Below, in pieces: positions 1 to 37,500 of a stretch of 42,063 nucleotides of DNA. The translations under genes and the position numbers were made by a program. A model generated the notes under the pieces. The model was given only the letters and a program-made list of their open reading frames with translations. It was not told the origin of the DNA and did no database searches. The stretch lies in assembly GCA_030156945.1 (NCBI GenBank), contig JASGLT010000017.1, positions 1-42,063 on the forward strand. Direction: 5' to 3'. Source of the stretch: Thermococcaceae archaeon. GTDB lineage: Archaea > Methanobacteriota_B > Thermococci > Thermococcales > Thermococcaceae. The first letter of the stretch is position 1; each line of letters starts with the position of its first letter.

Positions 1-38
1 TAAGTAAATAATGGTTTCAGTCCTCATTTCTCTCCCCT

Positions 39-59
39 TTTCTGAAGAGGTATCAGAAA
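39..59. repeat. 7-bp inverted repeat upstream of the glycosidase promoter
   Basis: TTTCTGA (39-45) and TCAGAAA (53-59) are perfect inverted arms around a 7-nt spacer, about 57 nt upstream of the TATA box. It could be a regulator site for the glycosidase gene or the 3' hairpin of a gene left of the window. It is not the TATCAC-N5-GTGATA motif of Thermococcales sugar regulators, which I did not find here. Confidence 0.35.
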
Positions 60-115
60 CTTAAACCTAACGTCCCACTGCTTATCCTGACAGTGTCGCT
101 AAAGAGTCCGATAAG

Positions 116-123
116 TTTATATA
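116..123 (+). promoter_or_regulatory. TATA box of the multidomain glycosidase gene
   Basis: TTTATATA lies in an AT-rich stretch. With the usual archaeal spacing, transcription would start near 146, leaving a leader of about 39 nt that carries the Shine-Dalgarno site GGAGGGAG (170-177) before the ATG at 185. A second AT-rich motif at 159-168 would place the start inside the gene, so I prefer the upstream one. Nothing else in 1-184 looks like a gene. Confidence 0.55.
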
Positions 124-184
124 TTTTGTCCAACTTCTTATAATTGCTATCCCCAAGCATATAAAATATGGAGGGAGCTATGTA

Positions 185-3100
185 ATGTATAGGCAAAAGG
201 CTCTGGCAGTGTTTGTTTTGTTTGTTGTTTTGGCAGGAGTAGCCGGAAGTATCCCAGCAGGCTACGCAGCGACGAACACCAGCACGTACACGACGCCCAC
301 AGGAATATACTATGAAGTCAGAGGGGATACAATCTACATGATAAACGTTGCAACGGGAGAGGAGACCCCAATACACCTCTTTGGAGTCAACTGGTTCGGC
401 TTTGAGACACCGAACTACGTCGTTCACGGCCTATGGAGTAGGAACTGGGAGGACATGCTCCTCCAGATCAAGAGCCTTGGCTTCAACGCGATAAGGCTTC
501 CCTTCTGTACCCAGTCAGTAAAACCGGGGACGATGCCAACGGGGATTGACTACGCCAAGAACCCCGACCTCCAGGGTCTTGACAGCGTCCAGATAATGGA
601 GAAAATAATCAAGAAGGCTGGAGACCTGGGCATATTCGTGCTCCTCGACTACCACAGAATAGGATGCAACTTCATAGAGCCCCTATGGTACACCGACAGC
701 TTCTCGGAGCAGGACTACATAAACACCTGGGTTGAAGTCGCCCAGAGGTTCGGCAAGTACTGGAACGTTATCGGCGCGGACCTGAAGAACGAACCCCACA
801 GCTCAAGCCCCGCACCTGCTGCCTACACTGACGGAAGTGGGGCCACATGGGGAATGGGCAACAACGCCACCGACTGGAACCTGGCGGCTGAGAGGATAGG
901 AAAGGCAATCCTGGAGGTTGCTCCGCACTGGCTTATATTCGTTGAGGGAACACAGTTTACCACCCCCGAGATAGACGGTAGCTACAAGTGGGGCCACAAC
1001 GCCTGGTGGGGCGGAAACCTCATGGGCGTTAGGAAGTACCCAGTCAACCTGCCCAGGAACAAGCTCGTCTACAGCCCCCACGTTTACGGCCCAGACGTTT
1101 ACGACCAGCCCTACTTTGACCCCGCAGAGGGCTTCCCCGACAACCTCCCCGACATCTGGTACCACCACTTCGGCTACGTAAAGCTTGATCTCGGTTACCC
1201 TGTTGTTATAGGTGAGTTCGGAGGCAAGTACGGCCATGGGGGAGACCCGAGGGACGTCACTTGGCAGAACAAGATAATAGACTGGATGATCCAGAACAAA
1301 TTCTGTGACTTCTTCTACTGGAGCTGGAACCCCAACAGCGGTGACACAGGTGGAATTCTGCAGGATGACTGGACGACAATATGGGAGGACAAATACAACA
1401 ACCTGAAGAGGCTCATGGACAGCTGCTCTGGAAACGCCACTGCTCCGTCCGTCCCCACGACAACTACAACAACCAGTACACCGCCAACAACCACAACGAC
1501 TACAACATCCACTCCAACGACCACTACCCAGACCCCGACCACCACTACTCCAACTACGACAACCACCACGACTACAACTCCTTCAAATAACGTCCCATTT
1601 GAAACTGTGAACGTTCTCCCGACTAGCTCCCAGTACGAGGGAACCAGCGTGGAGGTTGTATGTGATGGAACCCAGTGTGCCTCCAGCGTTTGGGGAGCTC
1701 CGAACCTCTGGGGAGTCGTTAAGATCGGAAACGCTACAATGGACCCCAACGTTTGGGGCTGGGAGGACGTTTACAAGACTGCACCCCAGGACATTGGAAC
1801 CGGCAGCACAAAGATGGAGATAAGGAACGGGGTGCTCAAGGTTACAAACCTCTGGAACATCAACATGCATCCGAAGTACAACACAATGGCATGCCCGGAG
1901 GTCATATACGGCGCCAAGCCTTGGGGCAACCAGCCAATAAACGCTCCGAACTTCGTGCTCCCGATAAAGGTCTCCCAGCTTCCGAGGATACTCGTTGACA
2001 CAAAGTACACGCTCGAAAAGAGCTTCCCAGGAAACAACTTCGCCTTTGAGGCCTGGCTCTTCAAGGATGCCAACAACATGAGGGCACCAGGCCAGGGGGA
2101 CTACGAGATAATGGTACAGCTCTACATCGAGGGCGGCTATCCTGCGGGCTACGACAAGGGGCCAGTTCTCACCGTTGATGTTCCGATAATCGTCGATGGA
2201 AGGCTTGTAAACCAGACTTTTGAGCTCTACGACGTCATAGCGGATGCCGGATGGAGGTTCTTCACCTTCAAGCCAACTAAGAACTACAACGGCTCAGAGG
2301 TTGTGTTCGACTACACCAAATTCATAGAAATAGTTGACAACTACCTCGGCGGTGGCAGCCTCACGAACCACTACCTGATGTCCCTGGAATTCGGTACCGA
2401 GATATACACCAACGGGTGCACCTCATTCCCGTGCACAGTGGACGTAAGGTGGACCCTTGACAAGTACAGGTTCATCCTGGCCCCAGGAACAATGGCCACT
2501 GAGGAGGCCATGAGCGTTCTCGTCGGAGAGGTCCAGCCTCCCGCTTCCACAACAACATCGCAGACGACTACTTCAACCACAACCCCAACGCCCACTACCA
2601 CTACCACGACTCAGACTTCAACCACCACTACAACCACCTCACCGCCGACAACCACCGCACCTGCTCAGGACGTAATTAAGCTCAGGTACCCGGACGATGG
2701 GCAGTGGCCCGAGGCCCCAATTGACAGGGATGGAGACGGAAACCCAGAGTTCTACATAGAAATAAACCCGTGGAACATACTGAGCGCTGAAGGCTACGCC
2801 GAGATGACCTACAACTTGAGCAGCGGGGTTCTCCACTACGTCCAGGCCCTGGATAGTATAACCCTCAAAAACGGCGGTGCCTGGGTGCACGGATATCCCG
2901 AGATATTCTACGGCAACAAGCCCTGGAACAACAACTCAGCCACCGATGGAGAAGTTCCACTGCCTGGAAAAGTCTCGAACCTGAGCAACTTCTACCTGAC
3001 CGTGAGCTACAAGCTGCTGCCGAAGAACGGACTTCCAATAAACCTTGCAATCGAGTCATGGCTCACAAGGGAGCCCTGGAGGAACAGTGGAATAAACAGC

Positions 3101-4153
3101 GACGAGCAGGAGCTCATGATATGGCTGTACTACGACGGACTCCAGCCGGCCGGCTCGAAGGTCAAGGAAATCGTTGTCCCGATAGTGGTGAACGGCACTC
3201 CAGTGAACGCTACCTTCGAGGTCTGGAAGGCGAACATCGGCTGGGAGTACGTAGCCTTCAGAATAAAGACCCCAATAAAGGAGGGAACCGTTACCATACC
3301 GTACGGAGCTTTCATAAGCGCCGCCGCGAACGTAACGAGCCTAGCCAACTACCCCGAGCTGTACCTGGAAGACGTTGAGGTTGGAACCGAATATGGAACG
3401 CCCTCAACCACGAGCGCACACCTAGAGTGGTGGTTCTACAACGTCTCGCTCGAGTACAGGCCTGGAGAACCACTGCTCTCACAGCCACCGGCTGAAGGAT
3501 CTGCTCCATCTGAAGGCGGACAGACTCCCTCGAAAGAAGCTACAGCGGGTACCCTAGACGTAAAGCTCGTGAACTCATGGGGTACCGGTGCACAGTACGA
3601 GGTCTCAGTCAACCTGGACACCTCAAGCACCTGGAAACTCCTAATTAAGATCAAGGACGGCAAGATCTCAGACATATGGAGTGCCAGCATCGTGGGAACG
3701 CAGGGAGACTACGTAGTGGTCCAGCCGAGTTCCCCAACGGCATCGGCTACAGTCGGTTTCGTGACCTCAGGAAATGCCCCATTGGTGGAGGAGGCAGTTC
3801 TGCTCTCTGGTGACAAGGTGCTCGCCACGTGGGCTGCGCCGAAGACCTCGGCCTCGGACCTGAACGTCACTATTAAGATCGACAGCGAGTGGGACTCAGG
3901 ATTCGTGGTCAAGATATACGTCACCAACAACGGCAACGCCCCCGTTTCAAGCTGGCAGATAAAGCTCAGAATGACGAGCCTCATCTCGAGCATCTGGGGT
4001 GGCACGTACACAGCCAGCGGGAACGTTGTAACTATAGTCCCGACTGGAAACAACACCGTCATAAACCCAGGAACCACTGTCGAGATCGGCTTCGTTGCCA
4101 GCAAGCAGGGAGCCTACGTGTACCCCGAGCTCCTTGGGGTCGAAATCCTTTAA
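185..4153 (+). CDS. Secreted multidomain beta-glycosidase GH5-GH12-GH12-CBM2-CBM2
   Basis: A 1322-residue extracellular enzyme expected to cut beta-1,4-glucans (cellulose, possibly xylan or mixed-linkage glucan). Residues 1-29 form a signal peptide ending in an Ala-rich cleavage region. Residues about 30-415 are a GH5 domain with the acid/base Glu in LKNEPH (E203) and the nucleophile in VIGEFGG (E344). A Thr/Pro linker (about 419-468) leads to a first GH12 domain (about 470-780), with YEIMVQLY (E641) and LEFGTE (735-739). A second Thr linker (about 785-828) leads to a divergent second GH12 domain (about 830-1090), with QELMIWLYY (E976) and VEVGTEYG. A Pro/Ser/Glu-rich spacer precedes two C-terminal beta-sandwich modules (about 1120-1220 and 1225-1322). 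Both resemble CBM2, and the second has the clearer VKIYVTNNG...SSWQIKL pattern. The ATG at 185 follows GGAGGGAG. A protein of this architecture has been described from a xylanolytic Thermococcus isolate (strain 2319x1, from memory). The substrate range is inferred. Confidence 0.93.
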   Translation: MYRQKALAVFVLFVVLAGVAGSIPAGYAATNTSTYTTPTGIYYEVRGDTIYMINVATGEETPIHLFGVNWFGFETPNYVVHGLWSRNWEDMLLQIKSLGFNAIRLPFCTQSVKPGTMPTGIDYAKNPDLQGLDSVQIMEKIIKKAGDLGIFVLLDYHRIGCNFIEPLWYTDSFSEQDYINTWVEVAQRFGKYWNVIGADLKNEPHSSSPAPAAYTDGSGATWGMGNNATDWNLAAERIGKAILEVAPHWLIFVEGTQFTTPEIDGSYKWGHNAWWGGNLMGVRKYPVNLPRNKLVYSPHVYGPDVYDQPYFDPAEGFPDNLPDIWYHHFGYVKLDLGYPVVIGEFGGKYGHGGDPRDVTWQNKIIDWMIQNKFCDFFYWSWNPNSGDTGGILQDDWTTIWEDKYNNLKRLMDSCSGNATAPSVPTTTTTTSTPPTTTTTTTSTPTTTTQTPTTTTPTTTTTTTTTPSNNVPFETVNVLPTSSQYEGTSVEVVCDGTQCASSVWGAPNLWGVVKIGNATMDPNVWGWEDVYKTAPQDIGTGSTKMEIRNGVLKVTNLWNINMHPKYNTMACPEVIYGAKPWGNQPINAPNFVLPIKVSQLPRILVDTKYTLEKSFPGNNFAFEAWLFKDANNMRAPGQGDYEIMVQLYIEGGYPAGYDKGPVLTVDVPIIVDGRLVNQTFELYDVIADAGWRFFTFKPTKNYNGSEVVFDYTKFIEIVDNYLGGGSLTNHYLMSLEFGTEIYTNGCTSFPCTVDVRWTLDKYRFILAPGTMATEEAMSVLVGEVQPPASTTTSQTTTSTTTPTPTTTTTTQTSTTTTTTSPPTTTAPAQDVIKLRYPDDGQWPEAPIDRDGDGNPEFYIEINPWNILSAEGYAEMTYNLSSGVLHYVQALDSITLKNGGAWVHGYPEIFYGNKPWNNNSATDGEVPLPGKVSNLSNFYLTVSYKLLPKNGLPINLAIESWLTREPWRNSGINSDEQELMIWLYYDGLQPAGSKVKEIVVPIVVNGTPVNATFEVWKANIGWEYVAFRIKTPIKEGTVTIPYGAFISAAANVTSLANYPELYLEDVEVGTEYGTPSTTSAHLEWWFYNVSLEYRPGEPLLSQPPAEGSAPSEGGQTPSKEATAGTLDVKLVNSWGTGAQYEVSVNLDTSSTWKLLIKIKDGKISDIWSASIVGTQGDYVVVQPSSPTASATVGFVTSGNAPLVEEAVLLSGDKVLATWAAPKTSASDLNVTIKIDSEWDSGFVVKIYVTNNGNAPVSSWQIKLRMTSLISSIWGGTYTASGNVVTIVPTGNNTVINPGTTVEIGFVASKQGAYVYPELLGVEIL
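1450..1583 (+). repeat. Thr/Pro-rich linker repeat 1 in the glycosidase
   Basis: A run of ACN and CCN codons encodes about 45 residues, nearly all Thr with some Pro, Ser and Gln, between the GH5 and first GH12 domains. Such linkers are usually O-glycosylated flexible spacers. On the opposite strand the run reads as meaningless poly-Val ORFs. Confidence 0.85.
2548..2664 (+). repeat. Thr/Pro-rich linker repeat 2 in the glycosidase
   Basis: A second low-complexity ACN/CCN run encodes the spacer between the two GH12 domains. It matches linker 1 in composition but not in exact order, which suggests independent slippage rather than a fresh copy. Confidence 0.85.
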
Positions 4154-4160
4154 TCCCTTC

Positions 4161-4175
4161 TCCTTTTTTCTTGAT
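4161..4175 (+). terminator. T-rich terminator after the glycosidase gene
   Basis: A pyrimidine tract with a run of six T follows the TAA stop by a few bases, with no hairpin. This fits an archaeal oligo-T terminator. It sits just ahead of the next gene's Shine-Dalgarno site, so some readthrough into that gene is possible. Confidence 0.5.
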
Positions 4176-4194
4176 CTCAACAGGAGGCGGGATT

Positions 4195-5583
4195 ATGGAC
4201 AGAAAAGTTGCACTCTTAGCCTACGTTGTTCTTATATCACTGATAAGCACGTATAGTTACACTGAATTTCTTGAGCTCAACGACTACATAGGCGATGAGG
4301 TCTGGTACGTGTCCGCTGCTAGAAATATACTCCACAAACTCGGATTCGCCCCAAAATACGAAGAGGATGGCTACTACGGTGTTAACCTGATCCTCCCAGA
4401 GAACGTCGACAGGAACAACCTGAGCCTGAAGGTCAAGATATGGAGCAGCTTCTCCTCCTGCCAGAATCAAAACCCCGGCCACGTCAGGCCGCCGGCGAGA
4501 ACTCAGGTTGAATATCAGAACATCAACGGATTCTATTATGAGGTGAGAGAGGACTGCCTGGAATCCCTTTTGAATCTCGATGAGGGTATAATCACCATTA
4601 CTGGATACAAATACCCTGACAAGAAAAACATAGTGTCGTACCTAAACACGGAGCACTCATTTTTCGGGAAGGGTCTCATTGGGCTTTCCATGCTAGTTGA
4701 GGATTCCCCATTCTTCTGGAGGCTTCCCGGGTTCTTGGAGAGAATTCTGCTTGTTTTTATCGTCGCGTACGTTGCCTACGCTCTTACTGAGGATCACCTA
4801 ACCCCCGCAATAGCCGCGACCATAGCTGCCTTTGACAAACTCCTGCTATCGATGTCGGTTACGGCTATGCTGGACATACACGTCGCTTTCTTTGCTGTGC
4901 TCGCAATGGTCATGTTTTTGGAGAACCGCTACGGGCTCGCGGGGATCTTTTTGGGGCTCGGAGTGGCAACGAAGATGAACCTGGCATTTCTGCCCCTGGT
5001 TTTCACCCTCATACTGCTTAAGAGGAGGAATTACAGGGAGTTGCTGCCGATGATTGGCCTTGCCCTGGCGGCTTTCATAGTCGCTCACGTTCCCCTGATG
5101 GTGGCTATCGGTCCAGAGGAGACCATAAAACAGCTAGTCTCCAGTTTTGGATGGCACTTGAGCACCAAGGAGAACCACCCGGCAATATCTCCAGTGTGGA
5201 CATGGTTCTATTCTGCCAAGGATTTTCCACTCCACTACGGGCCCGATTTGAGTGCAGAAATAAGCGAGCGCCTATTCCAGGGAGCACTTGTGAGTACTGT
5301 ATTTTTCCCGGTTCTTAGGAGGAGAAGGTCAGGAGGGAATCTTGGGATCGTTTATGCTTCGTTCTGGGCTGGAGTAATGTTCTACGTGGTGCACTATCTC
5401 CTCGGAGGGAAAAACCAGTACTCTTTCTACGCAACACCACTCGTTCCGCTGGCGGCGATAATGACCGCTGTTTTAATCAGAGAGGCTGTAAATTGGGAGC
5501 TTTTGGGAGAGCTGAGGCGCATTTTCGGGGCGGGGCTCAAAAAAGCGAGGTTAGAAGCCTACCTAACGAAGCCAGGAAGGTAA
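4195..5583 (+). CDS. GT-C type membrane glycosyltransferase-like protein
   Basis: A 462-residue polytopic membrane protein. The ATG at 4195 is chosen because AGGAGGCGG lies just before it; upstream in-frame codons run through the glycosidase gene. A first membrane helix (about 7-22) is followed by DYIGDEVWYVSAARNI, which matches the acidic first-loop motif of dolichyl-phosphate-sugar-dependent GT-C transferases (PMT/ArnT/GT39-like). An extracytoplasmic loop of about 120 residues with two Cys follows, then eight or so helices from about residue 175. The likely role is transfer of a sugar from a lipid carrier to protein or lipid on the outer face. Since it lies 41 bp after a secreted protein with long Thr linkers, modification of that protein is an attractive guess but unproven. 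Donor and acceptor cannot be told from sequence. Confidence 0.75.
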   Translation: MDRKVALLAYVVLISLISTYSYTEFLELNDYIGDEVWYVSAARNILHKLGFAPKYEEDGYYGVNLILPENVDRNNLSLKVKIWSSFSSCQNQNPGHVRPPARTQVEYQNINGFYYEVREDCLESLLNLDEGIITITGYKYPDKKNIVSYLNTEHSFFGKGLIGLSMLVEDSPFFWRLPGFLERILLVFIVAYVAYALTEDHLTPAIAATIAAFDKLLLSMSVTAMLDIHVAFFAVLAMVMFLENRYGLAGIFLGLGVATKMNLAFLPLVFTLILLKRRNYRELLPMIGLALAAFIVAHVPLMVAIGPEETIKQLVSSFGWHLSTKENHPAISPVWTWFYSAKDFPLHYGPDLSAEISERLFQGALVSTVFFPVLRRRRSGGNLGIVYASFWAGVMFYVVHYLLGGKNQYSFYATPLVPLAAIMTAVLIREAVNWELLGELRRIFGAGLKKARLEAYLTKPGR

Positions 5584-5602
5584 AAAATGGAGAGCAAAAC
5601 AG

Positions 5603-6295
5603 CTAATCCAGCGCCTCCAGGACCTCGAGCACGTGCTCAACGCCCGGAACTTCAAATCCCCTTTCATGGATTTTCCTTACGCCCTCCGCCTCCGGGTTTA
5701 TCCAGACGCCCCACATTCCAACCCTTATGGCCCCTTCAAAGTCCTCAGCGTAAGTGTCTCCAACATGGAGCGCTTCCTCGGGCTTTACCCCAAAGGTCTG
5801 AAGGGGCTTCATAAACATCTCGGGCAGTGGCTTGAAGGTTCCAACCTCGTCCGCGAAGAAAGTTTTGTCCACGAAGTTCATAAGCCCGAAGCGCTCAAGA
5901 AGAAGTCTCGTGTAGGAGCCCGGCCAGAACATCACGTTGCCCGTGACGGTAACTTTGAGCCCCCTTCTTTTTACCCCCTCAAGGGCCTCTTTGGCGCCCG
6001 GGAGAACTATTTCATCGCCCACGTTAATTACAGCCCTCGCCGCGGCCCTCTTGACGAGCTCAACGTCTATTCCGAGCAGTTCTGCCAGAAGCTCCTGGCT
6101 CTCTTCAAGGGGCCTTGAGGGATCGCCCTCCCCCCTGGCGCGCATCCCCTTTATCCTCTCGCGCGTCAGCATCATGCCCTCCACAACGTCCACTATGCAT
6201 GTCCCCATCAGCTTTGAGAGTTCCCCGGCCATGACGTCGAGCATGACGTTTATGTCGAGAAGGGTGTTCCAGACATCGAATGACACCAGCTTCAT
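5603..6295 (-). CDS. HAD superfamily hydrolase
   Basis: A 230-residue predicted cytoplasmic phosphatase-like enzyme. HAD motif I is FDVWNTLLD, where the nucleophile Asp is present but the usual second Asp of DxD is Trp. Motif II is VTGNVMF, motif III is the Lys in FKPLPEMF, and motif IV is [13 protein letters not shown]. The region between motifs I and II (about 20-95) is helical, as in C1-cap HADs. The ATG at 6295 is chosen because GGTGG precedes it and the protein then begins directly with the motif I strand; the reading frame is open 25 codons further upstream without support. It follows the TOPRIM-like gene by 40 bp on the same strand and may share its transcript. The substrate is unknown. 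The Trp in motif I could mean altered chemistry, as in dehalogenase-like HADs. Confidence 0.85.
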
Positions 6296-6335
6296 CTTTA
6301 CCACCGGAGAATAAGTTGAACCCCAGAATAAAAAC

Positions 6336-7358
6336 TCAACGCTCCCACATTGCCAGCCTGACCAGCCCATCCATCAGCCCAGCTTCCCTGAGGACGGCCT
6401 TCAGGTTCCTGAAGCGGGAGCGCATGACGAAGAGCTCATAAAAGCCCTCCAGATTGCCCCAGTGCCCGTAGGCAGATAGCGCTATGTACATGACCTCCTT
6501 GGGCTTTAAAAGCCTGCCGAGGCTTTCGCTCAGGGCCTTCAGTCCGGGCCTTATCCTCTCCATCAGCCCCTCCCTCGCTATGAGGTGCAGCATCAGGTCT
6601 TCAACGGTGGGCTTCCTCCAGTCTATTAGCTCGTCCTGATAAGGCAGGCCTATTATCAGGGGGATTACCTCAGTGCCACCGACCAGGTAGCCCTCCCCAG
6701 ATTCCCTATATTCAAAGTCCGAGAGCCTGCCCAGTATTGAATCCAAAGCCGCCTCTCTGTTCTCGTCTATATCGACGGCAACCCCTATTCTGTCCACGGC
6801 AAAGGCAAAAACATCCATCGCCCTCAGGAAGTTTCCAAGGTTCCTCACAACGCCGGAGTTGCCCTCACTCGGGATTACGGCCACGTAGGTTCCGTCAGAC
6901 GACCTCTTGAGGATGTCGAAGTTGTCTCTCTCAAAGACGCGCTCGATGAAGGTCAGGTTGTAAGGGACTTCCCTGCTCTCCCTGAACTCAAAGAGCTTCT
7001 TGAAGACGGCTTTGAAGAACTTGGCGTCCGTCTTGCCCTCCACAAAAAGCACAGAGGTTCTAGCGGGCTCCCCCGAGAAACCACCCCTGACGTCAAAGTC
7101 CAGGTATTTCCTGAGCTCGTGGACTTCCTTGAGTGTGAGGGACTTGCCGGTATCCGAATAGATAAGAACGTTCTCCTCCCCCTTTTTGAACCTCCGGGCA
7201 ATGAGGTCAAGGAGCTCAAGGCTCGCCGTTACGATAGTCTCGTCTCCCCTGAGTGAACCCACGAGCTTCTCCAGTTCCTCCCTGTTCTTCCCGTATTCGG
7301 GAAATAGAAGAGCATCTTCCGCATACCTTTCCCACTTCTTCCCAGTAACTACCCTCAT
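6336..7358 (-). CDS. TOPRIM-like protein of unknown function (DUF3226-like)
   Basis: 340 residues. The N-terminal 100 residues are mainly helical. The segment [14 protein letters not shown] (about 105-118) fits a TOPRIM first strand with its conserved Glu, and [13 protein letters not shown] (about 197-209) fits the D-x-D part, so a metal-binding fold of the kind found in topoisomerases, primases and OLD nucleases is likely. The C-terminal 100 residues are helical. The ATG follows GGTGAAGTGA and begins immediately after the TGA of the membrane protein gene upstream, so the two are almost certainly translated together. I recognise the family only loosely. Whether it is a nuclease is not shown. 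Confidence 0.7.
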
Positions 7359-7892
7359 TCACTTCACCATGTCAACAGCTATTGCGCCAACTATCGCGAA
7401 GGTGCTCGTTATTACCGTCGCGCTGAGGTACTGAGGAAGCGTGAACTCAGCCAGCCTGTTTATGCCGTAGAGGTATATCATGCCCGCAGAGACCGTGTAG
7501 GAAATAATGGATACGGTTATCAGCCTTTTTGGCACATGGAACACTTCCTCAGCCCTTATGTTCCCAATTCTGGACTTCGCTATAAGACCATAAGCTATCC
7601 CCATCGTGAGCAGAAAAATTGCAAAAGCTCTCCAGAGCGAAATTTCTTTGGCCACGTCCCAGAGTTCAGACGTGAAGAGGAAGGGGAGGGCGAAGGTTAC
7701 AGCCCCAACAAGCTCCTGAACTATGTCGTCCAGTCCCAGGGAGTCCGGTTCGCTTCTGCGCTCCTCCGCCCTGGCTATAGCCCTAACCTGCTTTTCGATC
7801 TCTTCAAGTCTTCCGTCTATCATCTTAAACCTCTCTGAGTCCCGCTCAGGTTCGGGGGTCATCATCTTTTCAGCATTGGATTCACTCATCAT
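7359..7892 (-). CDS. DUF2391-like integral membrane protein
   Basis: Up to 177 residues. The first 55 are charged and partly coiled-coil (RLEEIEKQVRAIARAEERR). Four membrane helices follow (about 63-78, 87-107, 123-145, 152-175). The family resembles DUF2391/TIGR02587, of unknown function. The start is uncertain: ATG at 7892 or 7889 lacks a Shine-Dalgarno site, and a TATA box at 7919-7926 would start the RNA only a few bases upstream, so a leaderless start is likely. The first 50 bases also form a C/D box RNA pattern (7842-7897). The stop codon abuts the start of the TOPRIM-like gene. Confidence 0.7.
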   Translation of the reverse strand: MMSESNAEKMMTPEPERDSERFKMIDGRLEEIEKQVRAIARAEERRSEPDSLGLDDIVQELVGAVTFALPFLFTSELWDVAKEISLWRAFAIFLLTMGIAYGLIAKSRIGNIRAEEVFHVPKRLITVSIISYTVSAGMIYLYGINRLAEFTLPQYLSATVITSTFAIVGAIAVDMVK

Positions 7893-7897
7893 CGCGG
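7842..7897 (-). ncRNA. Candidate C/D box sRNA (2'-O-methylation guide)
   Basis: Read on the minus strand the order is stem CCGC (7897-7894), G, box C ATGATGA (7892-7886), a 12-nt guide (7885-7874), box D' CTGA (7873-7870), a 4-nt spacer, box C' ATGATGA (7865-7859), a 9-nt guide (7858-7850), box D CTGA (7849-7846) and closing stem GCGG (7845-7842). All four boxes are perfect, the ends pair, and the 56-nt size is right for archaeal C/D RNAs bound by L7Ae, Nop5 and fibrillarin. A TATA box about 26 nt upstream puts the start near the CCGC. The second guide is short (about 12 is usual). It overlaps the 5' end of the membrane protein gene. No target was assigned. Confidence 0.6.
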
Positions 7898-7918
7898 TAC
7901 TTGATTCTGCTCCTCAAG

Positions 7919-7926
7919 TTATAAAG
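7919..7926 (-). promoter_or_regulatory. TATA box for the C/D sRNA candidate and the DUF2391-like gene
   Basis: On the minus strand the element reads CTTTATAA. Standard spacing puts initiation near 7895-7897, the 5' end of the sRNA candidate and 3-5 nt before the first ATG of the membrane protein. Confidence 0.5.
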
Positions 7927-7992
7927 GTAAGGATTATAAGACTCCCCTACTCTACGGTGCCTAGTCGGGAGAAAAATTCTGAGGTGAGCAGT

Positions 7993-10215
7993 ATGGTCGT
8001 CAAAGATTGTCCCGAGTGTCATGGAACGGGCAAGGTAAAAGCTGGCGAGAAGGAGTGCCCCGTTTGCGAGGGCTGGGGATACGTTCCGGCTGACTTTAAG
8101 ATTGGAGACAAGCTCAAGGGTTACAGGAACCTGGATCACCTCGGCGTGGAGGACGAGGTTGACGAGATACCCTGTCCCGAGTGCCACGGGAAGGGTACTG
8201 TCCCAGTTTACGACACCTGTCCGACCTGTGGGGGAACCGGGAAGATTCTCGCCTGTGACATCTGCGGAAAGATAAAAGAACCATGGGAACCGGGTATGGA
8301 GACGACGTGGGTCTGCCCGGACTGCCTTAGAAAGTACAAGGTCGTTTACATCCTCGATAAGACCTGTGACTATGAGGACGTCGAGGTTGGCAGCCTGTAC
8401 AAGGGAACGATTGACAGGGTGGAGCGCTTCGGAGTCTTCGTCAAGCTCAACCCCCACGTCACCGGCCTGATCAAGAGGAAAGACCTCCTCGGCGGGAGGG
8501 AGTACAAGCCCGGCGACGAGATAGTCGTGCAGGTTCTCGACGTGAGGCCGGACAAGAGGGAAGTTGACCTTATCGAATCGGCCCTCAGGAACTACAAGAC
8601 GGTCATTGTCAGGAAGGAGCTTCCGGTCACTCCAATAGCCGAGCTGAGCAAGGAAATGGCCGGAAAGACCGTCAGGATACAGGGAAGGGTTACCCAAGTT
8701 CAGGTGACCGGCGGACCGACTGTCTTCACCATAACGGACGGAACAGGAATTACATGGGCGGCCGCCTTCGAGGCGCCCGGAGTCAGGGCTTATCCAAACA
8801 TCAACGTCGGAGATATCGTCGAAATCATCGGCAAGGTGGCCTTCCACTCGGGCGAGATACAGATCGAAGTCAGCGACATGACAAGGCTCTGGGGGCCGGA
8901 TGCAGCGAGGGTGAAGCAACAGATAGAGGCCGAGCTCGACAGGAGGGCACAGCCGGAAGACGTTGGCTTCTTGGTGGAGAGCGAGGTTCTTGAGAAGCTC
9001 AAGCCGAAGATAATGAAGGCCGCCTTCATGATAAGGAGGGCAATCCTGGAGGGAAGGCCGATACTCCTGAGGCACCACGCCGATGCCGACGGCTATACAT
9101 CCGGTCTTGCGCTGGAATACGCTATAGTCCCGCTCATCGAGAAAGTCTCGCCCGACTCCCAGGCAAGGTGGAAGCTCTTCAAGAGGAGGCCAAGCAGAGC
9201 TCCGTTCTACGAGCTGGAGGATGTGCTCAAGGACATCATATTCATGGTCGAGGACCACGAGAAGTTTGGCGACCCGCTTCCGCTCCTCGTAATAGTTGAC
9301 AACGGCGGAACGAGTGAGGACATTCCGGCCTACAAGCGCATTCGCGCCTACGGCGTCCCGATAGTGGTGATAGACCACCACGACCCACGCGAGTGGGTGA
9401 GCGAGGATAAGGCGAAGGTGGACGACTACATTGACGTCCACGTCAACCCGCACCACGTCAAGCGCGGCTACTACGAGCTTACAGCAGGAATGCTCGCTAC
9501 CGAAGTTGCGCGCTTCATCAACCCCGAGGTCGAGGACAGGATAAAGCACCTTCCGGCCATAGCGGGAACCGGCGACAGGAGCAAGGCTCCGGAGTTCTAC
9601 CAGTATCTCGAGATAGCGAAGAAGGCGAAAGGTCTCGACGAGGAAGACCTGAAGAAGATAGCCGAGGTCATCGACCACGAGGCCTACTTCTGGAAGTTCA
9701 TGGACGGGCACGGAATCATTGATGAGATACTCCTCCTGACCCGCAACCTACAGAGGCACCGCGAGCTCATCAACGCGATTTACCCGGAGGTCAAGGAGAA
9801 GCAGGAGAAAGCGCTGAAAGCTTCCCTGCCGCACGTCAAGAGTGTCGTCCTGCCGAACGGGATAAGGTTCAACACTATAGATGTGGAGCTGTTCGCGCCG
9901 AAGTTCAGCTATCCGTCTCCAGGCAAGCTCTCCGGCTTAATCCACGACCACTTCAAGGAGAAGTACGGCGAGGACTCGCCGATACTGACCTTAGCCTACG
10001 GACCGGACTTCGCGGTGGTTAGAGCGAGCGACGGCATGGCTGCCTACGGCTTCGACCTCAACGCGATAATTCCAAAGCTCCAGGAGAAGCTTCCGTCAGC
10101 CGGAATCGAGGGCGGTGGGCACAGCTACGCTGGCTCGATAAAGTTCTTCGAGGGCATGAGGAAAGAAGTCCTCGAGGAGTTCGCCAAGGAAGTCGTGAAG
10201 CTTAAGAGGGTTTGA
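7993..10215 (+). CDS. DHH family nuclease with DnaJ-type zinc finger, S1 and OB domains (HAN-like)
   Basis: 740 residues. Residues 1-115 hold repeated CxxCxG pairs (CPECHGTG, CPVCEGWG, CPECHGKG, CPTCGGTG) and further CxxC pairs, a DnaJ-type zinc finger. An S1 domain (about 125-195, GSLYKGTIDRVERFGVFVKL) is followed by a second OB fold (about 215-295, GKTVRIQGRVTQV). The DHH phosphoesterase core begins near 345 with HHADADGYTSG, continues with LVIVDNGG and VIDHHDPREW, and ends in a DHHA1-type domain with GGGHSYAGS. This combination resembles the Thermococcus Hef-associated nuclease HAN, a RecJ-like 3'-5' single-strand exonuclease; I am less sure of that name than of the domains. The ATG at 7993 is preceded by GAGGTGAG; an in-frame GTG at 7984 is less likely. 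The gene stands alone. Confidence 0.85.
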   Translation: MVVKDCPECHGTGKVKAGEKECPVCEGWGYVPADFKIGDKLKGYRNLDHLGVEDEVDEIPCPECHGKGTVPVYDTCPTCGGTGKILACDICGKIKEPWEPGMETTWVCPDCLRKYKVVYILDKTCDYEDVEVGSLYKGTIDRVERFGVFVKLNPHVTGLIKRKDLLGGREYKPGDEIVVQVLDVRPDKREVDLIESALRNYKTVIVRKELPVTPIAELSKEMAGKTVRIQGRVTQVQVTGGPTVFTITDGTGITWAAAFEAPGVRAYPNINVGDIVEIIGKVAFHSGEIQIEVSDMTRLWGPDAARVKQQIEAELDRRAQPEDVGFLVESEVLEKLKPKIMKAAFMIRRAILEGRPILLRHHADADGYTSGLALEYAIVPLIEKVSPDSQARWKLFKRRPSRAPFYELEDVLKDIIFMVEDHEKFGDPLPLLVIVDNGGTSEDIPAYKRIRAYGVPIVVIDHHDPREWVSEDKAKVDDYIDVHVNPHHVKRGYYELTAGMLATEVARFINPEVEDRIKHLPAIAGTGDRSKAPEFYQYLEIAKKAKGLDEEDLKKIAEVIDHEAYFWKFMDGHGIIDEILLLTRNLQRHRELINAIYPEVKEKQEKALKASLPHVKSVVLPNGIRFNTIDVELFAPKFSYPSPGKLSGLIHDHFKEKYGEDSPILTLAYGPDFAVVRASDGMAAYGFDLNAIIPKLQEKLPSAGIEGGGHSYAGSIKFFEGMRKEVLEEFAKEVVKLKRV

Positions 10216-10280
10216 GCTTTCACCAACCTTTTTAACCCCCCGAGATGAAATGGTCTGAAGAAAGCAGCGGAGGAATGTTG

Positions 10281-10535
10281 ATGAAGATAGTTCTTGAGGT
10301 AACTTTCAGGATGGGAGGCGTCTCCTACCGCGGCCACCGATGGGAGGACGGAACTTTAGTAGTTGAATTTGAGAGGATTGGTGACGCCTTCATACAGGTT
10401 CTCAGCACGAGAAAAGTCGAGCTTGAGGTGGAAAAGCCCCCAAAGAGGGTGCTCGTTGAGCTGAAGACCAAGGAGGGCGGAAAGGTCTTTGAGGCCTTTG
10501 AAAGGGATGGTGTCTACCTGGCCGCCGAGTTTTGA
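10281..10535 (+). CDS. Small protein of unknown function
   Basis: 84 residues, predicted mostly beta, beginning MKIVLEVTFRMGG. The ATG at 10281 has GGAGG 7 nt upstream. A TATA box (TTTTTAA, 10229-10234) would start transcription near 10257, which rules out the earlier in-frame ATG at 10245 and supports this start. ATG 10275 is a close alternative. There are no membrane segments or cysteine motifs, and I do not recognise the family. Confidence 0.6.
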   Translation: MKIVLEVTFRMGGVSYRGHRWEDGTLVVEFERIGDAFIQVLSTRKVELEVEKPPKRVLVELKTKEGGKVFEAFERDGVYLAAEF

Positions 10536-10553: not shown

Positions 10554-10585
10554 GAGAAGCTGATTCCGCAAAGCAGCCGCTTCTC
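10554..10585. terminator. Hairpin followed by T run between two small genes
   Basis: GAGAAGC (10554-10560) and GCTTCTC (10579-10585) pair around an 18-nt loop that can itself form a GCTG/CAGC stem. AAAATTTTT follows at once. This could end the upstream 84-residue gene. The T run is also the TATA element (10590-10597) of the next gene. Confidence 0.4.
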
Positions 10586-10628
10586 AAAATTTTTAAAGAG
10601 GGGCGAGTAAGAAACCCCGGTGGTGCCC

Positions 10629-10841
10629 ATGTTCATGGCCGAGTTCAAGCTTCGCTATGGCGACATGAAGTGGTACGTGAGGAGGATAATCGAGGCTGAG
10701 AGCCTGGAAGAGGCCGAAGAGAAAGCCAGACGCTATGCAGAGCTCATGAACCGAGGAGAGGTTACCTGGGAGCTCAGCTATGTTATCGAATCAAAGAGAC
10801 CCCTCATTGTGGGGGACGAAGAGCTCAAGAAGCTCTCTTAA
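10629..10841 (+). CDS. Small conserved-looking protein of unknown function
   Basis: 70 residues, MFMAEFKLRYGDMKW..., predicted as beta strands around a charged helix (ESLEEAEEKARRYAELM), a simple alpha/beta fold. GGTGGTG lies just upstream. The start could be GTG 10620, ATG 10629 or ATG 10635; I take 10629. TTTTTAAA at 10590-10597 puts the RNA start near 10620, so the leader is very short. The last 4 bp overlap the convergent asparaginase gene. No function can be assigned. Confidence 0.6.
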   Translation: MFMAEFKLRYGDMKWYVRRIIEAESLEEAEEKARRYAELMNRGEVTWELSYVIESKRPLIVGDEELKKLS

Positions 10842-11824
10842 TCCTCCCTTATCTCCCCTGCCAGATTTTTCTTTATGATGTTTCTTATTTCCTCAACGCT
10901 TTTCGTGTGGCCGAGTGCCCACATCAGTTTAGTGAGGGCTGCTTCCTTTGTCATGTCCCCAGCCGGTATAACCCCCGCCTTCAGCGCCCTCCTGCCGACC
11001 TCGTACCTCCTCAGATCCACGCCCCCGTAAACCGCCTGGGTGGTCATGAGAATTGGTTTCTTCCCTGCCCATTCCGCAACGACCGCTAAAAGGTCCCTAC
11101 CCCTGTATGGGATGCCCCCAGCGCCATAGCCCTCCAAAACTACACCATGAGCCGCCCTAATTAGTGCCCTGAACACGTCCGGGGAAAGTCCGGGGGTCAG
11201 TCTTATGTGAACCACGTTTGGGTCGAGCTCCGGGTCAAAAACCGGCTCTCCCCTACCAACCTCCGGCTTATGTCTGATTATGACTTTATTTCCTTTGACG
11301 TAGGCTATGTCAGGATAATTGATACTCTGGAACGCGTTAAGCCCGAGGGAGTGAACCTTTGAAGCCCTGGTCCCGAGCATTATTTTGTCCATGAATGCAA
11401 CGTAAATCCCGGGAAGTCCTTCTTTGGCAAAGTTTATGGCCGTATGCAGGTTTCTGGGAGCGTCGCTGTTGGGTTCAGTTATCGGGAGCATTGACCCCGT
11501 CAGTACGACCGGCACCGGAGGGTTCCTTATCATGAAGCTAAGGGCGGAAGATGTGTAGGCGAGGGTGTCTGTGCCATGGGTTATCACTATTCCATCGTAA
11601 TCTCCAAACGCATCAAAAACAGCTTCTCCTATTTTTACCCAGTCCTCGGGCTGAATCAGTGTGCTGTCGATGTTTAAAATGTCGCGAGTCTCGATTTTGA
11701 CACCATCTTCCCTCTCTATTCCGGCCAACTCAATTACCTCATCCACGCTGAGGGAGGCCTTGTACCCCATTTCCGTCTTTGCACTCGCTATAGTCCCCCC
11801 AGTACCGAGAACCAGAATCCTCAT
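10838..11824 (-). CDS. ansA: L-asparaginase (type I)
   Basis: A 328-residue cytoplasmic enzyme hydrolysing L-asparagine to aspartate and ammonia. The N-terminal GTGGTIAS carries the nucleophile Thr11. THGTDTLAY supplies the second catalytic Thr85-Asp86 pair, LTGSMLP follows, and the Lys of TRASKVHS completes the site. Length and motifs fit the well-studied dimeric asparaginases of Pyrococcus and Thermococcus. The ATG at 11824 follows GGTGAGTGG. The 3' end overlaps the small convergent gene by 4 bp, with the two stop codons sharing TTAA. It appears to be a single-gene unit. Confidence 0.95.
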   Translation of the reverse strand: MRILVLGTGGTIASAKTEMGYKASLSVDEVIELAGIEREDGVKIETRDILNIDSTLIQPEDWVKIGEAVFDAFGDYDGIVITHGTDTLAYTSSALSFMIRNPPVPVVLTGSMLPITEPNSDAPRNLHTAINFAKEGLPGIYVAFMDKIMLGTRASKVHSLGLNAFQSINYPDIAYVKGNKVIIRHKPEVGRGEPVFDPELDPNVVHIRLTPGLSPDVFRALIRAAHGVVLEGYGAGGIPYRGRDLLAVVAEWAGKKPILMTTQAVYGGVDLRRYEVGRRALKAGVIPAGDMTKEAALTKLMWALGHTKSVEEIRNIIKKNLAGEIRED

Positions 11825-11913
11825 CCACTCACCTGTTCCATATACTCCCCCTTCTTTTTAGTCTTTCTGACAATAAATGAGGAAAAAGAGGAGGAATTTT
11901 TGTCATTATGACA

Positions 11914-13110
11914 TCATCGGTCGCGGATGAAGATCATGAGGAAGAGCGCCACGAGGTTCATTGCAGCGGCAAAGGCAAAACTGTAGGTTAAAGAGTGGCT
12001 CTTCCACAGATAGCCGGCTATAACGGAGGCGGGGAACACAAAGACTCCAAAGACGGTGTGGTAAGCTCCTATTATAGTGCCCTTCTCGTAGTCCTTTGCA
12101 AGGTCAGCCATGTAGGCCCTTGGAACCGTGTCCTCAATCGCTATGTAGAGGCCGTAGAGTACAAAGGCCGCAAGGAGGGAGGCAAAGTTGCTCGCATAGG
12201 CAAAGCTCAAAGAAGCTAAAGCCGCAACACCGAAGCCCACTGTTATCATTTTCTTCTTCCCAAACCTGTCCGAGTAGAGGCCTATGGGATATGCCGAGAG
12301 CGCGTAGATTGTGTTGAAGAGGGCATAGAATGCCATTCCCTGAACGACCGTGTAGCCGAGCTCCTTCGCCTTCCAGAGTGTGAATGCGTAGCTGTACCTT
12401 CCCAGCGCCCCAACTGCAACGACAGCGAGAAAGAGCTGCAGGTTTCTGTCCCTGAGCGTTGATATTCCCGTTATCTTCTTTTTGACCTCGGCACCTCTGT
12501 CCTTAACGAAGAACAGGATAACAAATAGAGAGATTAGCCCCGGAACCGCAGACAGCAGGAAGACGTAGCGGTATGCCTTTTCAACTGGCAGGCCTTCGAG
12601 GAGCTTGAGGAGACCGATGGCGACGAGCGGGCCCGCTACCGCTCCAAGCGTGTCCATCATCCTGTGGAAGCCGAAAGATTTGCCGGATTTTCCCGTTTCA
12701 CTGGATTCTGCTATCAGAGCGTCCCTCGGTGCCGTTCTTATCCCCTTACCTATCCTGTCAAGTGCCCTCAGCGTCAGAAAGTCCCACCAAGAGCGGGTGA
12801 AAGCCAAGGCTCCCTTGGCGAGGGTTGAGAGTGCGTAGCCGATGAATACGAAAGCCTTCCTTTTCCTAAAGCGGTCGCTTACGTAGCCGAACGCCACCTT
12901 GAAGAGGGAACTCATGCTCTCTATCGCGCCCATAATCGAACCGCTGATGAGCTTGCCCTCCCCGAGAACGTCTGTTAGATAGCTCGGCACTATCGGGCTT
13001 ATCATCTCGCTGCTCATGTCGTTCAGAAAGCTGACTATTCCGAGCAGGAAGACGTTCCAGCTTATCCCAAAGACCTTTCCTTCTTTTTCACCGGTGTCTC
13101 TGCTCCTCAT
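11914..13110 (-). CDS. Major facilitator superfamily transporter
   Basis: A 398-residue, 12-helix inner-membrane transporter. The loop between helices 2 and 3 reads GYVSDRFRKRKAF, the MFS signature, and it recurs in the second half as GLYSDRFGKKKMI. It begins 3 nt after the PadR-type regulator gene, with its Shine-Dalgarno site (GGGAGTGAGGT) inside that gene. This pairing is typical of drug or toxic-compound exporters controlled by a PadR repressor, so efflux is the best guess. The substrate is unknown. Confidence 0.9.
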   Translation of the reverse strand: MRSRDTGEKEGKVFGISWNVFLLGIVSFLNDMSSEMISPIVPSYLTDVLGEGKLISGSIMGAIESMSSLFKVAFGYVSDRFRKRKAFVFIGYALSTLAKGALAFTRSWWDFLTLRALDRIGKGIRTAPRDALIAESSETGKSGKSFGFHRMMDTLGAVAGPLVAIGLLKLLEGLPVEKAYRYVFLLSAVPGLISLFVILFFVKDRGAEVKKKITGISTLRDRNLQLFLAVVAVGALGRYSYAFTLWKAKELGYTVVQGMAFYALFNTIYALSAYPIGLYSDRFGKKKMITVGFGVAALASLSFAYASNFASLLAAFVLYGLYIAIEDTVPRAYMADLAKDYEKGTIIGAYHTVFGVFVFPASVIAGYLWKSHSLTYSFAFAAAMNLVALFLMIFIRDR

Positions 13111-34599: not shown

Positions 34600-37500
34600 T
34601 CAGAGCACCCGATAGAAGCCGGCCCTCGGCTCGTATATCCTCGACTGAGCTGAGAGCTCCTCCAGAAGCCTCCTGGCCTCCGCCTTGTTTATTCCTTGCT
34701 TTGAGGCCTCCTCAAGCACCTTGTCGACCGGGGCCCCGTATTCGCCTTCCTCCTCAAGCGCCTTTATAATGCTTATGAGCCTGTCAATCTTGTTTATTTT
34801 CCTGGAGCTGGTTCCAACCTCGAGTATTGAGACGTCGAGTGTTCCCTCCTCGTCAACGGCTATCTTGCGTATCATGTCCTCCATCAGCCGTATGGCGGCC
34901 CTGGCATCCTCCCTCGTGACGGTCTCGCTCAGCCTCATCCTCGCGTGGGCCTCACTTAGACGGATTAAGGCCTCAAGCTGCCTCGCGGTTATCGGTATGG
35001 GCTGTACCCCCTCATCGCCGCTACCCTTGAATCCCTTCCTCATTCTGACGTAGTAGCGCTTTATCTCCTCCATGGCCTCCCTGCTGAGCACGGGGTGAAC
35101 GTTCTTTCTCGCGTAGGCTATGTACTTCTTGAGCAGGTCGTAGGGTATCTTCGGAGTTACAGCTTCAGCCTCCCCCCTCCTGACCTTCAGGATGTGCTCG
35201 GCTATGTTGGAATCAAGCTTCTCGTCCGGCTCGTCGAGGAGCAGGAATATAAGGTCAAAACGACTTAAGAGCGTCGGAGGCAGGTCGAGTTGCTCTGGAA
35301 GGCTCTTGTGTCTGTTAAAGCGCCCGAATTTCGGATTGGCAGCAGCTATAACGGTAGTCCTCGCGTTAAGGGTGGCGGTTATTCCTGCCTTGGATATGCT
35401 GATCGTGTTGTGGAGGACGAGCCCGTGGGAGACAAAGAGGTGATGTGGCTCCACGGTAACGTCATAAACCCACTCCCAGCGGTCGTTGGGAACCACGCTA
35501 ACCTTCTTAACCCTCAGGAAGTTTATGTTGCCCTCCCACCACTTAAGGAACTCCTCCAGAGGCTCCCTTGCCCTTCTCAAGAGCACCTCGCACGCCAATT
35601 TAACGCGTCTTACGGCCACCTCATCACCCACAGAAACAAGTCTCTTCAGCAGGTTGGGACTCATCCCGGTTTGCTGGTAGAGCCAGAACTTCGGCAGAAG
35701 CTCTATGCTCCTCACGGGGTCATCGAAGGTAGATTCAAGTTCTTTAATCCTCTCCAGAACCCTGGAAAGGTATCCTTCTATTACGCTTCCCTTCACAAGA
35801 TCCCTCACGAAAGCCTGCCTTTCTTTGGGGCTCTGGGACACCTTAAGAACCCTACCCGCCCTAAGCAGGGGCTTCACGAGCTCCTTAGGGAAGTAACGCT
35901 CGTCCTCGTAGACCTCATAGTAGTTCCCGTACTTCCTTATCTTTGAAGGCTTCCCAAGGGAGTAGAGATGGTCCTGGTAATCCTCAGCCTCCCTCAACTC
36001 CCCGAACTTAGTCTTAAACTCTGCCTCAACGCCAACTGGATACTTCAGCACTCCAAGGGCGATATCTCCCGCTGAAACCCGCTCAGCCGGCTTTTCAACT
36101 ATCTTCCCATCCTCCCATACCATGATTGGGTGCTCCGGCGTTACGGTAATCTCCCTCCCATTAGAGAATTTTATCCTGATGAACTCCCTTGGAGCTTTGT
36201 GCCTGCTCACGCGGTCGGCCTTTACCTTCACTATATCCATCTTTTCGAGGTCGTAAGCCAAGAGCTCGACGTCCTCAACGGGCAGTATCTCTGTGTCCTT
36301 TCCGAGTATAACCTTGTCGCGATTCTTCTCTATGAGCTCATCAACCAGCTCACCTATCTTCACCTTCCTGCCGTCGGCCAAGAGGAGCTCAAAGTCGTGG
36401 TGGTAGCTCTGCTGCTCCAGTGCCTCATGTATCGCGCTCCTGTCCCTGTCGCTCATCTTGTCAAACTCGTCAATGCAGTTGTGAACTATTATTCCCTCGG
36501 CTATGAAGTTGTGCTCTCCCGGAACATAGAGGTCGTAGACATAGCCCTCGTAGGGTATGCGTTCAATTGAGACTATCTCATCCAGGAAGTAATCCCTAGT
36601 CACTAGAACCTTGAGCTTTACTAAGGTTTCTGAAGGAATTAGGTGCCCGATTCTCTCAATGATCTTTCTTACCTGTATTCTGCTGGGGGCGTATTTTCCA
36701 TGAGTGTAGGCGTAGATAGTGCTCCACAGACCAGCTTTCTGGAGCGCAGTAGCTGGAACGGAGTCAAGAATTTCCTTTGCGAGTTTCCTCATAGGTTCAG
36801 TGGGTATCTTGTCGCTGTAGGATGAAACGAGATGTTTCTTCTCGGGAAGTACCTTAATTTTGACACTATAGTCTCTAACCGCGTTGAGGAGGTTTTCTAC
36901 GTCTTCTCTGCTTGTTATCCGTATCCTGTTCACACCTTTTCCAGGAATCACTTTAGCGTAAACGTCGAACCTGCGCAGGAGCATTGCAAAGGCCCTGTCC
37001 CTCTCAACATCATCCGAGAGAAGGAACTCGATGTGCACAACTTTGCCTCTCTTGCTGTTTTTAACAGATACACATCCGTCTGAATCGAGTGCTCCAGCTA
37101 TGAAGGCTTTGAGTGCCTCATCATTCAGCGAGAATGCGTTCTTGAGGTTATCTTCCGTTAGATACTCATAGATGAAGGCCAGCAGTGGAGAACCCACGTG
37201 GAAAGTTATGGACTCGCTCTCCACCTTGTTCCCCGCCACCTCGCTTTTAGTTCTCCTATCATGCTCCATGAGTTCGCCGTTGTAGAATGCTCTGAACGTT
37301 TTTCTGATTCTCTCAATCTGCTCTTTGTGAACTTTCGACTGGACAATCCTCACGTGGACTTTTGAACCGTGCTTTGATATCCACCCATCACCGTAGAGGA
37401 ATCCTATAAAGTACGCCAGCTCCGGTGTTATGTATGAAACTTTAAGCCGTTCTCTGCGGTAGTTTGGCCCATAAGTGAGCGAGCGCTCTCTCCAGGTCTC

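Follow-up and report, generated by a model that had tools for sequence, protein, structure and literature searches.

A predicted secreted multidomain beta-glucanase orthologous to the MDG of Thermococcus sp. 2319x1, and a suggested direction for its transfer

Introduction

The closest described system is the multidomain glycosidase (MDG; ADU37_CDS22600) of Thermococcus sp. 2319x1, which was reported in 2016, with a biochemical dissection following in 2025 (PMC4853606, PMC12265866). Activities of the full-length protein, the GH5 domain, and each GH12 domain have been reported (PMC4853606, PMC12265866), and residues 1-28 were given as the signal peptide (PMC4853606). A partial counterpart, Cel12E from a Thermococcales enrichment, carries a GH12 domain followed by two CBM2 modules, as in the MDG, but has neither the GH5 nor the second GH12 domain (PMC4486847).

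Here, we describe an MDG gene (mdg) from a Thermococcaceae archaeon (assembly GCA_030156945.1, contig JASGLT010000017.1, positions 1 to 42,063). This whole stretch of 42,063 nucleotides is referred to as the window. Very probably, mdg encodes a secreted hyperthermophilic multidomain beta-glucanase orthologous to the 2319x1 MDG, and 2319x1 acquired the block that carries it from a relative of the window's genus.

Results

The features of the locus are listed in Table 1. mdg is a single unbroken ORF with an ATG start, and the chain runs in the order signal peptide, GH5, Thr-rich linker, GH12, Thr-rich linker, GH12, CBM2, CBM2. Pfam matched Cellulase (GH5) at residues 67-385 (E=4e-52), Glyco_hydro_12 in two stretches (E=3e-40), and CBM_2 in two stretches (E=7e-18), each exceeding the curated cut-off. 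These matches and searches with each GH12 and CBM2 domain alone bear out the initial annotation, which had placed one GH5, two GH12, and two CBM2-like modules in one chain. The linkers, which it had called Thr-rich, contain up to 32 Thr per 40 residues. The five domains of this predicted secreted chain are in the same order as in the 2319x1 MDG.

Table 1. Positions of the features discussed, numbered from the first base of the window
Feature	Position	Strand	Basis
End of repeated (IS-like) element; contig begins here	1..99	.	Match to contig C41
Promoter, mdg, GT, and C-terminal part of HAD gene, common to 2319x1	98..5946	+	blastn 89.6%, 5,855 columns
BRE/TATA-like archaeal promoter (putative) CCGATAAGTTTATATAT	109..125	+	Sequence reading; 2319x1 copy identical
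Ribosome binding site (putative) GGAGGGAG	170..177	+	Sequence reading
mdg gene	185..4153	+	1,322-aa multidomain glycosidase GH5-GH12-GH12-CBM2-CBM2
Signal peptide (predicted), ~28 aa	185..268	+	Hydrophobic N-terminus
GH5 catalytic domain, aa 37-415; predicted catalytic E203 and E344; Cys pairs 108-161, 374-414	293..1429	+	Pfam 4e-52; PH1171 structures E~1e-257; residue mapping
Thr-rich linker 1, aa 416-477	1430..1615	+	Linker comparison
GH12-1 catalytic domain, aa 478-789; predicted catalytic E641 and E739; Q645; Cys pairs 493-498, 745-750	1616..2551	+	Pfam; sequence search; mapping
Thr-rich linker 2, aa 790-825	2552..2659	+	Linker comparison
GH12-2 catalytic domain, aa 826-1092; predicted catalytic E976 and E1069	2660..3460	+	7s8k and EglA matches; residue mapping
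CBM2-1, aa 1114-1218, chitinase ChBD-like CBM2	3524..3838	+	2cwr E=3e-11; AF2 pLDDT 90, CBM2 fold match
CBM2-2, aa 1222-1322, bacterial CBM2a-like	3848..4150	+	Pfam CBM_2; 3ndy E=3.5e-8; AF2 fold match
GT-C glycosyltransferase (PMT/GT87-like), 462 aa, 41 bp past mdg stop	4195..5583	+	Pfam; 88% identical 2319x1 gene
HAD-family hydrolase, core gene of the window's genus	5603..6370	-	Profile and genome comparison

The window MDG and the 2319x1 MDG (genome G080) share 94% amino acid identity across all 1,322 residues. The GH12-2 domain of G080 is identical to PDB entry 7s8k, which is labelled Thermococcus sp. 2319x1 GH12-2. By this comparison, the window protein is an ortholog of the 2319x1 MDG and belongs to a known kind of protein, so that the similar layout mentioned in the initial annotation understated the relationship. 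The rarity in archaea that was also proposed there is seen within the family Thermococcaceae, where a full-length MDG was found in 3 of 94 genomes, at three different sites. A search for related loci among genome contigs returned a single distant GH5, from a Chloroflexi MAG, and nothing else.

Two single-domain enzymes bear on the origin of the MDG. EglA (PF0854), a well-studied GH12 model cellulase of Pyrococcus furiosus, has 83% identity to the window GH12-2 and falls inside the MDG clade. It is a single domain, unlike the MDG, and the short Ser/Thr/Pro-rich stretch ahead of it aligns with MDG linker 2. A grouping of the three MDGs without EglA was rejected with AU p = 0.003, a somewhat flattering value as the clade was chosen after the first tree had been seen. 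The GH5 endoglucanase PH1171 of Pyrococcus horikoshii is 88.5% identical to the window GH5, including two disulfides, but its single catalytic domain is followed by a short Ser/Thr tail, and it has no GH12 or CBM2. PH1171 fell outside the three MDGs in the GH5 tree (95/90), and the alternative was not rejected (AU p = 0.17). An origin of PH1171 by fission of an MDG was considered and not adopted, given this tree and the lack of any GH12 or CBM2 remnant next to it. A more speculative reading, somewhat less likely than not, is that EglA, and perhaps PH1171 too, was cut from an ancestral multidomain MDG and was not a building block of it. Alternatively, an EglA-like GH12 may have recombined into the lineage of the window and 2319x1. 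Replacement of GH12-2 in the third MDG genome (G051) was thought unlikely to cause the placement of EglA because the GH12-1 and GH12-2 domains of G051 are both 66% identical to those of the window.

The GT-C gene follows mdg at exactly the spacing given in the initial annotation. Its product has at least seven hydrophobic segments and an acidic GDE motif at residues 33-35. The Pfam models PMT (5.4e-8) and GT87 (1.8e-7) both matched over cut-off, and the NCBIfam PMT equivalog fell far short (24.5 bits versus a cut-off of 800 bits). This gene was inherited together with mdg in two genomes, and it is missing beside the G051 MDG, which is without Thr-rich linkers. One explanation is that GT-C is a dedicated O-glycosyltransferase for the Thr-rich linkers and, with mdg, makes up a modification pair. 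The 41-bp gap and the PMT matches are in line with this, and the pairing is repeated in 2319x1, where the gene adjoining mdg encodes a protein with 88% amino acid identity. Also, no other GT in the searched Thermococcaceae genomes is as close as this one, which adjoins the other MDG with Thr linkers, and the remaining homologs reach ~44% at most. The G051 MDG, with no neighbouring GT, has Asn/Ser-rich linkers and 31 N-glycosylation sequons, compared to 15 and 13 in the other two MDGs. However, of the 61 genomes of the window's genus, 60 carry a GT paralog of 38-42% identity. In the window genome, this paralog has aglB and glmS nearby, which suggests N-glycan making or extension and not O-mannosylation. 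In a Pyrococcus, the gene for a GH12-CBM2-CBM2-GH18 protein, whose Thr linkers are long, is not accompanied by a GT. Three MDGs are known in all, two with the association and one without it. A dedicated modification pair is doubtful, and a part of the transferase in MDG glycosylation is the one point of the initial annotation that is unsupported.

The window and 2319x1 have a 5.8-kb block in common, with sharp ends at both sides in blastn. Its right end in 2319x1 is the C-terminal half of a HAD gene. This fragment is 91% identical to the window HAD, compared to 57% for the native HAD of 2319x1, and nearly every genome of the window's genus has an intact HAD gene (~62-84%). The GC content of the block is 52.9%, while the 2319x1 flanks are at ~40-43% and the remaining window at 52.6%. 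In 2319x1, the block is flanked by inverted transposase copies. Because this high-GC island in ~40%-GC DNA ends inside a foreign HAD fragment, the comparison suggests that 2319x1 was the recipient and a relative of the window's genus the donor. The promoter-mdg-GT-HAD block would have moved as one piece into the low-GC recipient. GH5, mdg, and GT have the same dS between the window and 2319x1 (0.36-0.39), which is what a single event would give. A dS of ~0.37 indicates that the two copies have long been separated, and the donor may have been a species other than that of the window. The dN/dS values (mdg, ~0.09; GT, 0.16) indicate purifying selection.

At the left end of the window, mdg with its own promoter and the GT-C gene adjoins the end of an IS-like element. 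Bases 1-99 recur at 100% identity as the start of contig C41, next to a cut ABC-transporter gene, and have a 76% DNA match to 2319x1 sequence next to a transposase ORF. The contig begins with the window, so the element upstream of mdg is seen through its last 99 bases alone. Relatives carry a DNA polymerase B gene at this place; in the window genome, polB lies on a separate contig and is followed by different genes. Together with the IS end, this makes mdg-GT an insertion in the window genome too. It would fit the window copy being the recipient, with a low-GC Thermococcus or an outside source as the origin of mdg-GT, but the GC of the block equals that of the window genome and the HAD piece of 2319x1 clearly derives from the window's genus, making this very unlikely. 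Transfer into 2319x1 is preferred, and mdg-GT may be an older arrival into the window's genus.

Catalytic Glu pairs, which the initial annotation had seen in all three domains, were confirmed by residue mapping to characterised enzymes. E203 and E344 of GH5 correspond to PH1171 E201 and E342, and all eight PH1171 active-site residues (R102, H155, N200, E201, H297, Y299, E342, W377) are identical at +2 numbering. As lone queries, GH12-1 matched P. furiosus EglA (E=2.4e-22), and GH12-2 matched 7s8k (1e-186) and EglA (5e-153). The calcium-site residues of GH12-2 are D847, D849, D851, E855, and D921. This site, both Cys pairs of GH12-1, and all catalytic pairs are kept in the window MDG. The AF2 model of GH12-1 was weak (pLDDT 57.5), although GH12 structures still topped its matches (E=1.4e-10). 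This precluded an active-site superposition, and the catalytic residues, therefore, rest on sequence alignment and published numbering.

With CBM2-1 as a lone query, the Pyrococcus and Thermococcus chitin-binding CBM2s 2cwr, 5dhe, and 5dhd were found, and with CBM2-2, C. cellulovorans EngD and C. fimi CBM2a. Both modules were predicted to form the CBM2 beta-sandwich (AF2 pLDDT 90; TM (target) 0.84 to 2cwr and 0.76 to 6qfs). The columns invariant in the three MDG orthologs include three Trp per CBM2 module, which are predicted to stack against the ligand. The initial annotation had named loss of catalytic residues and C-terminal modules unlike CBM2 as findings that would refute its reading; the residues are kept, and in both modules sequence as well as predicted fold agree with CBM2. 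The two GH12 domains share 33% identity over 181 aa and BLAST detected no similarity between the two CBM2 modules, so neither pair is a recent duplication, in agreement with the earlier reading of the GH12 domains. It is extremely improbable that a catalytic domain or a CBM is a dead relic in an only partly working protein, as the divergence of GH12-1 and its Q645 at the site of the active-site Trp in GH12-2 might imply, since every catalytic Glu is present and identical in the three orthologs, the dN/dS of mdg is ~0.09, and the GH12-1 of 2319x1, with the same Gln, shows activity and exceeds GH12-2 in thermostability (PMC12265866). A half-life of 42 h at 100 C has been published for the 2319x1 domain.

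Discussion

By homology, the window MDG would be exported by its signal peptide, and its C-terminal CBM2 pair would keep it on beta-glucan or chitin-like surfaces. GH5, GH12-1, and GH12-2, spaced by the Thr-rich linkers, are predicted to be retaining catalytic domains that would cut beta-1,4 (and mixed 1,3/1,4) glucans internally, with xylan and mannan as probable side substrates. Endoglucanase activity of all three catalytic domains was measured with the 94% identical ortholog (PMC4853606, PMC12265866) and is predicted for the window protein.

The direction of mdg transfer is now given, where the 2016 paper could only say that it was lateral. The placement of EglA calls into question an assembly of the MDG from pre-existing single-domain enzymes. 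If the excision of EglA is true, the MDG would be an old thermococcal enzyme that is rarely retained and repeatedly transferred.

Where one protein was known before, the published MDG gains a 94% identical ortholog in another genus and a 64% identical natural variant. The 2319x1 and window MDGs share five domains, their order, catalytic residues, Cys pairs, the calcium site, Thr-rich linkers, and the downstream GT. The hosts belong to different genera of the family under the genome grouping used, and the window host is at 53% GC. The window MDG differs by linkers that are 8 and 12 residues longer and an extra Cys, C570. Around the gene, the HAD gene is complete in the window, and the inverted transposase pair of 2319x1 was not seen there. 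The 64% identical variant, the G051 MDG, has the same five-domain order and kept catalytic residues. It differs from the window MDG in its linkers and sequons, its genomic site, and the lack of an adjacent GT; the second Cys pair of GH12-1 is missing and the calcium-site acids are partly altered. The G051 protein thus offers two natural tests: its missing Cys pair, of the disulfide contribution to GH12-1 thermostability, and its different linker kind and absent GT, of the importance of the linkers or the GT.

Domain composition and identity of the glycosidase

The initial annotation described three catalytic domains and two binding modules in one chain, and this arrangement was found to be real by Pfam, structure matches and residue alignment. 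The multidomain glycosidase gene (mdg; product, MDG) is a stop-free ORF of 1,322 residues, in which one GH5, two GH12 and two CBM2 stretches all scored above the Pfam cut-off. Every domain was additionally compared one by one with solved structures. GH5 matched the Pyrococcus horikoshii endoglucanase PH1171, GH12-1 matched Pyrococcus furiosus EglA (E=2.4e-22), GH12-2 matched PDB structure 7s8k and EglA, CBM2-1 matched archaeal chitin-binding domains, and CBM2-2 matched bacterial CBM2a. The CBM2-CBM2 tail also gave a confident AF2 model (pLDDT 90), each module of which matches CBM2 structures (TM by target 0.76-0.84). The AF2 model of GH12-1 was poor, yet GH12 enzymes were its top structural matches. 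Residues reported in the PH1171 and 2319x1 MDG papers were located in the window protein by alignment. Catalytic residues were retained in all three enzymatic domains: GH5 has 8/8 active-site residues and four Cys, both GH12 domains have their Glu pairs, GH12-1 retains Q645 and both Cys pairs, and GH12-2 keeps the calcium-site acids.

Coordinates of the features discussed
Feature	Location	Position	Strand
mdg	window	185-4153	+
Block shared with 2319x1	window	98-5946	
MCM helicase gene	window	34600-39246	-
449-aa secreted protein, copy 1	2319x1, L052	9442-10791	
449-aa secreted protein, copy 2	2319x1, L053	2221-3570	
Second secreted GH5	own genome, L055 (C20)	8730-10388	
GH1 beta-glycosidase gene	own genome, L096 (C42)	10557-12104	
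GH18 chitinase	own genome, L056 (C47)	116-2881	
GH12-CBM2-CBM2-GH18-like protein	Pyrococcus, L058 (G065)	6225-9083	

Among 94 Thermococcaceae genomes searched, full-length matches were found only in the window's own genome, G080 (94%) and G051 (64%). The G080 mdg is 3,912 bp including the stop, equal to the published length, and its GH12-2 sequence is identical to 7s8k, labeled in the PDB as Thermococcus sp. 2319x1 GH12-2. Since these ties identify G080 with 2319x1, the window gene is, by sequence, an ortholog of the published mdg, and the likeness proposed initially was correct. In the 2319x1 MDG, three retaining endoglucanase domains differ in how thermostable they are and in their side activities, and CBM2 tethers them to substrate (PMC4853606, PMC12265866). 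Following this work, the window MDG would likewise combine three retaining endoglucanase domains of differing thermostability, with side activities, and its CBM2 modules would tether it to substrate.

Transfer of the mdg block

The window and 2319x1 have a single block in common (89.6% identity, blastn) with sharp boundaries at both ends. It contains the promoter, mdg, a GT-C glycosyltransferase gene (GT; 88% amino acid identity) and the C-terminal part of a HAD-family hydrolase gene. In 2319x1, the block has a GC content of 52.9%, with flanks at about 40-43%, and sits between inverted copies (95% identical) of a transposase-bearing sequence. Its HAD fragment is 91% identical to the complete window gene; 2319x1's own HAD, elsewhere in its genome, is 57% identical to the window HAD. 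HAD is present in nearly all genomes of the window's genus, at about 62-84%. Because the right junction falls inside a gene of that genus, it fixes the direction of transfer as from a relative of the window's genus into 2319x1. The dS values were equal for GH5, mdg and GT (0.36-0.39), which fits movement in one event. At about 0.09-0.16, dN/dS is consistent with continued function.

A 449-aa secreted protein has two copies in 2319x1, one on each side of the block in opposite orientation, each adjoining one copy of that transposase-bearing sequence. The one copy tested had no Pfam match.

In relatives, HAD adjoins DNA polymerase B (polB). In the window's own genome, polB is found on a different contig, followed by different genes, and mdg-GT takes the position beside HAD. 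The first 99 bases of the window contig also open contig C41, where they interrupt an ABC-transporter gene; by this pattern, they are the end of an IS-like repeat. The repeat end and the polB location therefore indicate that in this genome as well, mdg-GT reached its site by insertion or rearrangement. The G051 mdg neighborhood differs from both sites.

The polB of relatives spans 775 to 1,704 aa (L071-L075), a spread indicating that species differ in the intein load of this core locus. The window MCM helicase (1,548 aa) is intein-interrupted: Pfam splits its MCM domain into three stretches and reports two Intein_splicing stretches as well as a LAGLIDADG match.

Linkers and the adjoining glycosyltransferase

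The linkers of the window and 2319x1 MDGs are almost pure Thr/Pro/Ser, whereas those of G051 are Asn/Ser-rich, and the G051 protein has 31 N-X-S/T sequons versus 15 and 13 in the window and 2319x1 proteins. Of the three mdg genes, only the two that encode Thr linkers have GT alongside; beside the G051 mdg no homolog was found, and none above about 44% elsewhere in the Thermococcaceae genomes searched. A diverged paralog occurs in 60/61 genomes of the window's genus and, in the own genome, shares its neighborhood with aglB and glmS, a setting that fits a dolichyl-phosphate-sugar GT-C enzyme. GT is a candidate modifier of the MDG. However, a 952-aa Pyrococcus protein, apparently GH12-CBM2-CBM2-GH18-like (CBM_2 was its sole Pfam call), has very long Thr linkers without such a GT neighbor.

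Other carbohydrate-active genes

Besides the MDG, the own genome encodes another secreted GH5 of about 552 aa (56-59% to the GH5 of the MDG), a GH18 chitinase that carries two CBM2 modules and lies at the start of a contig, and a GH1 beta-glycosidase about 6.5 kb beyond polB, which is a candidate for using oligosaccharides released by the MDG. GH5 genes of two related genomes (L033 and L034; G070 and G071) each have one in-frame TGA within the match, possibly reflecting decay, frame error or recoding.

Relation to known enzymes

In the GH12 tree, EglA groups with GH12-2 of the window and 2319x1 (support 100/99), and G051 GH12-2 falls outside this group. Constraining the three MDGs to exclude EglA was rejected (AU p=0.003). 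G051 shares all five domains, and its two GH12 domains are equally diverged from their window counterparts (66% each), so the five-domain architecture appears to predate the EglA split. EglA would therefore be an excised MDG domain or a domain exchanged between lineages. A Ser/Thr/Pro stretch preceding EglA aligns with MDG linker 2, which is only suggestive of excision due to its low complexity. The GH5 tree did not favor PH1171 as an excised MDG domain.

The architecture itself is already known; of more interest are the direction of transfer, the diverged MDG of G051 and the origin of EglA. The 2016 study deduced lateral transfer of the 2319x1 mdg from transposases without inferring a source (PMC4853606), and the junction within HAD now points to one.
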